From NCBI GenBank assembly GCA_947457565.1, contig CANGWH010000008.1, forward strand, positions 1 through 48,508: a DNA stretch of 48,508 nt. The letters are read 5' to 3'. Every line of letters starts with the position of its first letter. Within the stretch, counting starts at the first letter, position 1. Below the pieces are notes generated by a model. That model saw only the letters and a program-made list of their open reading frames with translations. It was not told the origin of the DNA and searched no databases. A program made the translations under genes and the position numbers. This stretch comes from Flavobacteriales bacterium. Its GTDB lineage: Bacteria; Bacteroidota; Bacteroidia; NS11-12g; UBA955. Positions 39,808 through 43,922 of this stretch are shown in pieces.

Positions 39808-41448
39808 GTGCAACGCAATTTAGAAAAATGTCAAATTCACACTTATTGCCCAATAAATTACAATTCCGTGATCGTAAATTACTCTCTATCTCGAATACTT
39901 TCTGCCCTACTATTATTTATTATTTCTAGCACTTGTTCAAGCTCAAGTATTATTGCAAACCCGGTTCCCAAAAAACCAATTAGCTATAGAGGGATATCCT
40001 CCAACCAGGAGAGCCTATGGATAGCAGGCAGTTTAGGAACCGTCCTGAAACTCAACAATTCAAACATTACCAATATCCAAATTGATTCTACTATTACCAA
40101 TTGGTATGTTCCAACAAACAGAGAACACACCATTGTTGCTTATTCGCTTCCCTGGGATACAGTTTCGCCTCAAGGTTTTGAACGCTACGATTTTCGAGAT
40201 ATTGAAAGTTTGGATAATCAAACGGCTATAGTTATGAGCGTTGGAGATAGTGCCCGGATTTTAAAAACGACAGACGGGGGTAATAATTGGAAAATCGTTT
40301 ACCGAAATTTTAGTCCCAATGTTTTTTTGGACGCCATCGCCATTGATTGGAAATCAGGATTTGGATTTGCCATTGGCGACCCACAATTAGAGCACGAATT
40401 ATTGCTTGGTGATGCTACGTCCACTAACAATAGACCAGAGAAAAATACCCAAGGTCTGAATGTCCCTGGTTGGAAATTTCAAACCAATACACAAAAAAAA
40501 CACCCGGTTCAACGCAGTGAATTACACAACAACCATTCTAATGAACATCTTATCAAACAATCAAATTCTTTACAACTAAAAGATACTAGTAGCTATCAAA
40601 AGAAATATTTCCTGATGTTAATCACTGTAGATTCAGGCAATAGCTGGCATCGAATCCCTGCTTGCTCTGCCAATGTACCTCAAGATAGCATTGCGGCATT
40701 CTTCGCCGGCAGTGGATCTTCTTTGCATATCCTTAAATCTACCATTAAACGCAACAAATTGAATGCTATAACGCATTTAGACGTACTGGTAGGTATGGCT
40801 GGTGGAGGGCAAAACCCTAGCTTTAGGATACTTAAGATTAATCACCATTTTCAAAATAGTAAAGCCTTAATACTGGAGGTGAACCACCAAACATATCCCT
40901 TGGCCTTGGGAAATGGAGCAGGTTGGGGTGCCTATGGTGGATTGTATTCTGCGGGAAAATTATATTGGGTTGGTGGCAATTATTTATTCCCAAATCACGG
41001 TGATTCTACCGTAAATTTTATATCCAACACCCAAATTCAACCAGTATTAAAAGGCAAAAACCTACCCCATTCTCTCCCTTTTTCAGTGGCTAAATCATCG
41101 GGCTACAAAAGTGGAATATGCGAATGCGCTGTCAATAACAAATCCATACTTTTTGCTGCTGGAAGTAGTGGTCTTGACCTATCCTTCGATCATGGAAATC
41201 AATGGAAACCCTTGTATGCCCCCGCATATAGACCCCAAGTTGTACCTGTAAAACAGGATGCCATCTCGCCAAGCAATATCCCTTCTAATGCTCCAAACCC
41301 CGATCAGCGCAACAGTAATCCACTGGGTACAACACCCAAAATATCAGGTTCTCAAAAAATATCTGTGAACGCTGTAGGTTGTTTTAAAAACGGAATTCTT
41401 CTGATTGGAAATCGTGGGTTAGCAACCTATTTACCGCTGCACCCGTAA
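39808..41448 (+). CDS. Exported BNR/YCF48-like beta-propeller protein
   Basis: Asp-box-like motifs KTTDGGNNWKIVYRNF, TVDSGNSWHRIP, SFDHGNQWKPL; signal-like segment ILSALLLFIISSTCSSSSIIANP; true start may be downstream. Confidence 0.7.
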   Translation: MQRNLEKCQIHTYCPINYNSVIVNYSLSRILSALLLFIISSTCSSSSIIANPVPKKPISYRGISSNQESLWIAGSLGTVLKLNNSNITNIQIDSTITNWYVPTNREHTIVAYSLPWDTVSPQGFERYDFRDIESLDNQTAIVMSVGDSARILKTTDGGNNWKIVYRNFSPNVFLDAIAIDWKSGFGFAIGDPQLEHELLLGDATSTNNRPEKNTQGLNVPGWKFQTNTQKKHPVQRSELHNNHSNEHLIKQSNSLQLKDTSSYQKKYFLMLITVDSGNSWHRIPACSANVPQDSIAAFFAGSGSSLHILKSTIKRNKLNAITHLDVLVGMAGGGQNPSFRILKINHHFQNSKALILEVNHQTYPLALGNGAGWGAYGGLYSAGKLYWVGGNYLFPNHGDSTVNFISNTQIQPVLKGKNLPHSLPFSVAKSSGYKSGICECAVNNKSILFAAGSSGLDLSFDHGNQWKPLYAPAYRPQVVPVKQDAISPSNIPSNAPNPDQRNSNPLGTTPKISGSQKISVNAVGCFKNGILLIGNRGLATYLPLHP

Positions 41449-43077
41449 ATCGATGATTCGAAATTGTTGATTCTGAAATACAACGGGCATTTGTGCCAAT
41501 GCCATCAAATCCATGGATTTCGGTGCATCATCCATGGAAAAACTTACCGAGGCATCATTCAGCCGTACAGATTTCGGAATAATAAAATAATCAACGCCAG
41601 ATTCTCTTAAAACCTTCAGATTAACAGGCAAATGTAATTTGAGGGTTTCACTGGTATAATCAACAGTATTTTGCACACGAATTACCCGTTTACCCGTTAA
41701 ATATCGCAATAGTCGAGGTTTAAAAAATGAAAATACAGCATCTTTTTCTAACTTCTTTTCTACGCAATCAGACAGCTCTAACATGTTGGTTGAAAACGCG
41801 CGATTTGTATCTAATTTCTTATAATGCAACGCAGTAACGGTACCCTGAACAAATACAAAGACAACCAATACCAGGGACATCAACCTATTATCCATAAACC
41901 TATTCCTTGCAAACCATCGGGGTGTTTGTATGGTTCTGCCGATTAAAAAAACCAACAAAACCCAAAGAGGATAGAGCGGAAATAACATTCGAACGCCCTG
42001 TTGGCTAGGCCATACAGTTAGCAATATCAAATTGGCGAAAATAAATAAGGCTATGGTTAGTTTATCACCATTCCCCCCCCCTCGAAATAGGGCAATGCCC
42101 CAAAAAATTGTAACCAACGCGAAAGGAATCCAAACCCACAATTCGGGTAATCCCACTATGGAATTTACAAGTTTCAACCCGTTAACAAGATGCCAAACAG
42201 GAAGCGCCGATAACATTCCCCAATACTGTAAAAAGTTTGAAATCCAGCTGTGGGTAATTCCACCTTCCACTAACTCTTTCCAGTGGTTTGCGCCAGTTCC
42301 TCGTTCTAACCATAAAGCCAATAAACCAGCTGAAATTGTCAATCCTATACCCCACTTGGCCCAACCAACAGCGTAATTACCCGCTGCCTCTTTGTCTTGA
42401 AAAATACCGCGCAGCCAAGTGTATCGATATTTTAAATTGAGCCTGGATATCCCTCGTATACTTAGCAATAAACTCCATAATATTGGCACTAATAGCAGTA
42501 CACCATTGGTTTTGGTAAGGGTAGCCCAAAACACTAAGCCCCCCAACAATATCCATCGTATAAACGTGTTCCCGCCATCTTGCCACCAAACCCACCAAAA
42601 CAACATCACCAAGGCAGCAAAAAACAAGTCCGATTGCAGTCTATCGGCGGCCTCCCATATCTTTGGATTCCACACGATAACTATCCCCAAAAGCAATAAA
42701 GACAACGGTTTTATAGAAAATTTCTTCCCTATTCGATGTAAAAATAGACCCGAGGCGCTTAGAAAAAATAAAAAGTTAATCAACTTTATACTTTGCCAAC
42801 CGAAGTGTGCTTTTACCCCAATAAATATCGATAAGAAAAAAGGGAAACCTCTGGGATACAAGTACGGTCCAATTAACTGATCCGAATGATCCATACAAAA
42901 ACGGTTCTCCCTTTCAAGCCACTGATAGGCCGTTGGATCCCAAAATCGTTCCGCCTGATCTACATATAAAATAAAATCGTCCCCAAATTCATGCCCAGGA
43001 TCAATACAAATCCAAGCACCAACAATCGACACAAAATAAACTAGAAACCAAACGAAATATTTTCTTGTAGATTTCAT
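41431..43077 (-). CDS. Polytopic GT-C/GT39-like membrane glycosyltransferase
   Basis: 548 aa, many TM segments; acidic first loop (DPGHEFGDDFILYVDQAERFWDP); adjacent to a GT2 gene. Contains a G9 tract (42073-42081). Confidence 0.7.
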   Translation of the reverse strand: MKSTRKYFVWFLVYFVSIVGAWICIDPGHEFGDDFILYVDQAERFWDPTAYQWLERENRFCMDHSDQLIGPYLYPRGFPFFLSIFIGVKAHFGWQSIKLINFLFFLSASGLFLHRIGKKFSIKPLSLLLLGIVIVWNPKIWEAADRLQSDLFFAALVMLFWWVWWQDGGNTFIRWILLGGLVFWATLTKTNGVLLLVPILWSLLLSIRGISRLNLKYRYTWLRGIFQDKEAAGNYAVGWAKWGIGLTISAGLLALWLERGTGANHWKELVEGGITHSWISNFLQYWGMLSALPVWHLVNGLKLVNSIVGLPELWVWIPFALVTIFWGIALFRGGGNGDKLTIALFIFANLILLTVWPSQQGVRMLFPLYPLWVLLVFLIGRTIQTPRWFARNRFMDNRLMSLVLVVFVFVQGTVTALHYKKLDTNRAFSTNMLELSDCVEKKLEKDAVFSFFKPRLLRYLTGKRVIRVQNTVDYTSETLKLHLPVNLKVLRESGVDYFIIPKSVRLNDASVSFSMDDAPKSMDLMALAQMPVVFQNQQFRIIDLRVQR

Positions 43078-43100: not shown

Positions 43101-43922
43101 TTACCTAATGGACATCTTCCCTAAAGCAATCCCCAATCCCACGTACGCGAGCATTGTAGCAAAAACAATAAAAATCAAAACCATCCCATAATTGATAGCT
43201 TTGCGGAAATTGAATTTTAAAATACAATAAATAGCCCTAAACCCATCTTTCCAGCCAATTTTCTTGCCTTCCTCGTACGTTCTACCATAATAACTAATCC
43301 CCACCTCGTAAATTCTAATTTTTGGAATTTTTGCAATTTTTGCGGTTACTTCAGGTTCAAATCCAAAACGCTTTTCCTCTAATGACAATCCTTGAATTAT
43401 TTCGGTTCTAAACATCTTATAACATGTTTCCATGTCTGTAAGATTCAAATTGGTCATCATATTGCTTAAAAACGTCAAGAATTTATTTCCGATCGTGTGC
43501 CAGAAAAACAAAATTCGATGAGGTTTACCCCCCATAAAACGGGAACCGTAAACTATATCAGCAAATCCATCGGTTATGGGTTTAAGTAAAATATTAAACT
43601 CATTGGGATCATACTCTAAATCTGCATCTTGAATAATCAGCACTTCCCCTGATGCCTTGGAAATCCCAGTATGTAAGGCCGCTCCTTTCCCTTGATTCAC
43701 CTCGTGCGAATAGAATTGAATATTCAGTTCAGGATTGGATTTTCGATAATTTTCTACGGCTTCAACGGTAGAATCTTTAGAACAATCGTTAACAATAATA
43801 ATTTCTTTTTCGATGTTATTAATTAACGATACCGCCTTAACCTTATCCAAAATATAGTGTATCGTTTTACCCTCGTTGTATGCGGGAATAACAATACTCA
43901 ACTTTTTAATTTCTGTTGACAT
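43101..43922 (-). CDS. GT2 glycosyltransferase (polyprenyl-phosphate sugar synthase / DPM1-like)
   Basis: [76 protein letters not shown]. Confidence 0.94.

Follow-up and report, generated by a model that had tools for sequence, protein, structure and literature searches.

A nine-guanine run in a predicted GT-C-fold glycosyltransferase gene of an uncultured Bacteroidota bacterium is probably a chance homopolymer

Phase variation often affects glycosyltransferases, and a run of nine guanines inside a gene for such an enzyme raises the question of whether the run is an evolved switch or a coincidence. The run considered here lies in a window of 48,508 nucleotides (the whole stretch of DNA that was analysed) from a member of the Flavobacteriales. 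Positions 42073-42081 read CCCCCCCCC on the plus strand, a C9 run, and hence G9 on the minus strand, within the ORF at 41431-43077 (minus strand). The run occupies nucleotides 997-1005 of this gene in phase 0 and encodes Gly333, Gly334 and Gly335 (GGG GGG GGG) of a 548-residue protein, in exact agreement with the position, frame and ORF given in an earlier sequence-only reading. That reading also held that either single-base slip truncates the protein, and slip arithmetic bears this out: loss of one base leaves 339 residues and gain of one leaves 337, with two-base slips giving 336 (-2) or 340 (+2), whilst changes of three bases keep the frame open (547 or 549 residues). A homopolymer within an ORF whose length changes of one base break the frame is one mark of a phase-variable locus, and the G9 run bears it. 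Programmed frameshifting at the run can be ruled out, as both alternative frames meet stops within a few codons.

The further proposal, that the run is a slipped-strand phase switch, fared less well. On this proposal, slipped-strand mispairing during replication would move the gene between G9, which encodes the complete enzyme, and G8 or G10, which encode shortened forms, so that one modification of the surface glycan is gained or lost. The length and frame of the run fit, with single slips truncating the protein at 337-339 of 548 residues. We found no positive support for it beyond the length of the tract and consider it unlikely, given chance-like run lengths, similar runs in housekeeping genes, homologues free of the tract and the presence of MutS and MutL. 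We instead favour the reading, to which we assign a probability of about 0.87, that the run is a chance homopolymer with no evolved switching role.

A predicted GT-C transferase beside a GT2 gene

None of the Pfam or NCBIfam models assigns the 548-residue protein, and a sequence search of the PDB with it matched no solved structure. We therefore turned to an AlphaFold2 model built from 19 sequences (pLDDT 73, pTM 0.78), for which the best Foldseek matches in the PDB were STT3 of oligosaccharyltransferases, DPY19, ArnT, ALG9/ALG12, PglB and AftD. All 26 PDB structures matched at E <= 0.001 are GT-C proteins, as would be expected of a GT-C transmembrane fold, and the TM scores against ArnT (5ezm) were 0.54/0.55. 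The acidic motif of GT-C enzymes is located near the start of the protein, and a GHE(F/W)GDDF motif is found here at residues 28-35, in which E30, D33 and D34 are invariant across the 19 sequences, consistent at the level of sequence with the acidic motif of the first loop. The earlier description of the gene as GT-C-like thus agrees with the predicted structure, which makes its product a polytopic GT-C-fold transferase. It resembles known GT-C enzymes (ArnT, PMT/ALG9/ALG12 and STT3/PglB) in predicted fold, in its first-loop acidic residues and in having a GT2 partner, but is only about 9-15% identical to the solved members and falls outside the Pfam and NCBIfam families. With its relatives it forms a GT-C family of uncultured Bacteroidota that has invariant GxExGDDF residues and lacks a Pfam or NCBIfam model of its own.

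The GT2 partner (43101-43922, minus strand) lies upstream of the GT-C gene, with 23 bp between them, and the two likely share an operon. It is of the polyprenyl/dolichyl-phosphate sugar synthase kind (Pfam Glycos_transf_2, E 6e-34), with a domain resembling those of DPMS, GtrB and ArnC; its best PDB match is dolichol monophosphate mannose synthase (5mlz, E 2e-16), and the matches to DPMS 5mlz, GtrB sll0501 and ArnC run from E 2e-16 to 4e-10. Against the NCBIfam equivalog models, however, every score was far below the cut-off, which sets it apart from these enzymes, and so the sugar cannot be assigned. The pair is kept in relatives, sometimes with a methyltransferase in between, together with a convergent YCF48/BNR-like gene that in the window lies downstream of the GT-C gene (39808-41448, plus strand; Pfam PSII_BNR, E 1.5e-5, below the cut-off). 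The suggestion that the adjacent GT2 could supply a polyprenyl-linked donor is therefore a reasonable one, judged from its DPM1/GtrB/ArnC-like sequence, its place directly upstream and the conservation of the pair, and a unit of donor synthase and transferase is well supported. From fold and family, the GT2 enzyme probably attaches a sugar to polyprenyl phosphate. The GT-C enzyme would then probably pass the polyprenyl-bound sugar to an acceptor on the periplasmic side. That the run sits in a GT-C gene beside a probable donor synthase is a point in favour of a switch, and the remaining question is whether the run itself behaves like one.

Long G/C runs in the window and the genome

Within the window the G9 run is the only G/C run longer than six, followed by nine runs of length six, so the earlier remark that no comparable run occurs elsewhere in it stands. 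The same remark called the window AT-rich; with 41.5% G+C it is only moderately so. A run of this length is not a rare outcome in such DNA. The longest G/C run reached at least nine in 14 of 100 third-order Markov simulations of the window, and when synonymous codons were shuffled among the 38 genes of the window, 15.8% of 400 shuffles contained a run of at least nine, at a mean of 0.17 such runs per 46 kb of coding sequence. Dinucleotide shuffles contained more G7 matches than the window itself (mean 7.3, against three observed). GGG accounts for 14.9% of glycine codons in the window's genes, which together offer about 18 overlapping Gly-Gly-Gly positions.

The genome is a 2.4 Mb draft of 144 contigs with about 41% G+C, for which we derived run lengths from counts of G7, G8, G9 and G12 pattern matches and from the extracted runs. 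On both strands there were 59 matches for G7, 17 for G8 and three for G9, and hence no run of ten or more. This corresponds to approximately 28 runs of length seven, 11 of length eight and three listed (two distinct) of length nine, or 14 listed and 13 distinct runs of at least eight, the difference arising from two G9 copies at contig ends (C25:260 and C79:79) that have the same flanks and were counted as one. The lengths decay as chance predicts. When the synonymous null is scaled to the genome, with pooled codon usage, it would give roughly eight runs of at least nine, against the two distinct ones observed, and about 45 of at least eight, which suggests that long G/C runs are several-fold rarer here than that null allows. 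A general shortage of poly-C and poly-G has been reported for prokaryotic genes (PMC2831843), and the depletion seen here agrees with it. Tracts at phase-variable loci should be longer or commoner than composition predicts, and those here are neither; this lack of enrichment counts against a switch, although the run is one of the genome's two longest. The comparison also has some value for calibration, in that chance alone is expected to produce a single G9 in a genome of this size and composition (2.4 Mb, about 41% G+C), and at least one G9 occurs in 38 of the 57 genomes searched.

The genes that hold the other long runs point in the same direction. All runs of at least eight in the genome sit inside long open frames, and ten of the genes concerned could be identified with Pfam: dnaX, a DPP-IV-like peptidase, comEC, a RecQ-type helicase, a ThiL-like AIR-synthase protein, a His_kinase-family sensor (which holds the second G9), a LysE transporter, purD, pnuC and a TonB-dependent receptor. 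Two more resemble, on reading, secreted proteins with type IX-type tails. Many of the carriers are thus housekeeping genes (dnaX, recQ, purD, thiL, comEC and pnuC), and slippage in dnaX or purD could scarcely serve as an adaptive switch. Such runs therefore have the look of noise that the genome tolerates, which again weighs against reading the G9 as a contingency tract.

The second distinct G9 (C9 on the coding strand; L021:260-268 and L027:79-87, on contigs C25 and C79) lies ten codons before the end of the histidine-kinase gene, and its two copies may be a single stretch shared by overlapping contigs. In another genome (G079, L052) a similar-looking kinase has G12 on the coding strand, likewise near the gene end.

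Published thresholds do admit the run as a candidate. It passes the cut-off used in Neisseria (G >=9) by length, and that used in Campylobacter (G/C >=7; PMC6321876), whose authors add that such cut-offs also take in tracts perhaps too stable for switching (PMC6321876). G/C runs of at least eight do vary in the organisms where they have been followed (PMC6321876), and this lends something to a reading in which the run arose by chance and is a passive hypermutable spot, slipping measurably more than the rest of the gene and giving occasional null mutants, but unselected for switching. Its position in a turn where changes of three bases are probably tolerated would also suit this. Against both this reading and a switch stands the presence of the mismatch repair genes: MutS and MutL were found at 902 and 470 bits, each above the curated cut-off, which rules out a loss of mismatch repair favouring slippage, and there is no sign that the repair system is missing. 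We regard the passive hypermutable spot as improbable, slightly more so than the switch. Under the chance reading, slips in the run would amount to rare loss-of-function mutations whose frequency mismatch repair keeps down. Some sequencing methods make errors in homopolymers, and the genome is a draft of many contigs, but an assembly or base-calling artefact concealing a true length other than nine is very improbable, given that nine is the in-frame length, that the protein can be aligned with its homologues both before and after the tract, and that the other runs of at least eight are likewise in open frames.

The tract site among homologues, and tracts in relatives

A scan of genome contigs with the single protein, looking for close GT-C relatives, found none. 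The protein has a match in 19 of the 70 genomes of the family (the window's own included), and its 18 aligned homologues are 25-36% identical to it. None of the 18 has Gly-Gly-Gly at the site of the run, where the alignment columns are variable, and none has a G/C run longer than six anywhere in the gene, which is open in relatives. An alignment-based scan gave 19 GT-C loci in named genomes, many of them from genomes already in the family set, and these agree in having neither the tract nor Gly-Gly-Gly at the site. One of the 19 (L081) has a single stop inside the matched stretch.

The AlphaFold2 model places the run where one helix (residues 313-335) closes, beside the next (337-355), and the site would seem to be a freely varying turn between two helices, a place where glycines can drift. 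The chance reading would then require only that three adjacent glycines in an unconstrained turn joining two membrane helices all happen to use GGG. The neutral drift of three consecutive glycines into nine Gs is one of the tract origins named by the PhasomeIt authors (PMC6321876). Since long runs are no commoner than chance, lie mostly in housekeeping genes and are absent at this site in relatives, the G9 is most likely an ordinary coincidence.

The absence of the tract from all 18 homologues tells against a switch, but with identities of just 25-36% to even the closest of them, a tract gained recently within the species would be invisible in this comparison. A poly-G contingency switch of recent origin, confined to this species and acting on the GT-C/GT2 pair of an uncultured Bacteroidota, deserves mention, though we think it unlikely. 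In Bacteroidota the better-known means of switching is DNA inversion, and our search of the literature on poly-G phase variation in this phylum found nothing directly on point. If the switch were real, slipped-strand variation of glycans would have to be counted among the traits of a Bacteroidota lineage that has been little studied.

Comparison with established contingency loci is instructive here. The poly-G/C loci of Campylobacter, Neisseria and Helicobacter share with the present case a G run, of a length known to vary, in a glycosyltransferase ORF that single slips truncate. The differences are that this genome has no excess of runs, that its similar runs are mostly in housekeeping genes, that homologues lack the tract and that MutS and MutL are present. 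Tract lengths in Campylobacter phasomes peak at nine (53%) and ten (26%) (PMC6321876), unlike the decaying lengths seen here.

Tracts of a different character are found closer at hand, in relatives of genus g9 within the same family. Two of these genomes (G009 and G019) carry small lipoprotein paralogues with poly-C near the 3' end (L098:1998-2158, L099:2100-3275, L100:2026-5927 and L104:1979-2163). At one homologous position the G009 copies have C13, C14, an interrupted C6-T-C6 and C5-T-C8, and their 3' ends differ accordingly between in-frame PPPDTAYYLIEF and shifted PPPRHCLSSNRVL; a copy with matching flanks has C8 in G009 and C9 in G019. That relatives of the same family hold long poly-G/C tracts of differing length may be taken to favour a switch in the window too. 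However, these lipoprotein tracts (C8-C14) look like genuine contingency tracts and are much better slipped-strand candidates than the G9, which shows none of such variation. It is the genome-wide length distribution together with the check on homologues that tells the G9 apart from these real-looking tracts.

The lipoprotein paralogues of G009 and G019 also have a second, poly-G tract upstream (G8-G12). Elsewhere in G009, a tandem array of related lipoproteins (CPPCGSDYLEIPQEMKDW...; L101:1556-2457, contig C3) has G9 and C12 tracts, of which the G9 copy appears frameshifted at the tract and the C12 copy is full length. The longest run found in the family is an intergenic G23 in the same genome (L058:1501-1523; C2:126057-126079). 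In a further genome (G018, contig C62), a C16 run at L050:1501-1516 encodes the prolines that close a small ORF, and this ORF overlaps a second small ORF, for a membrane protein, in another frame, an arrangement that is possibly a fusion or a switch.
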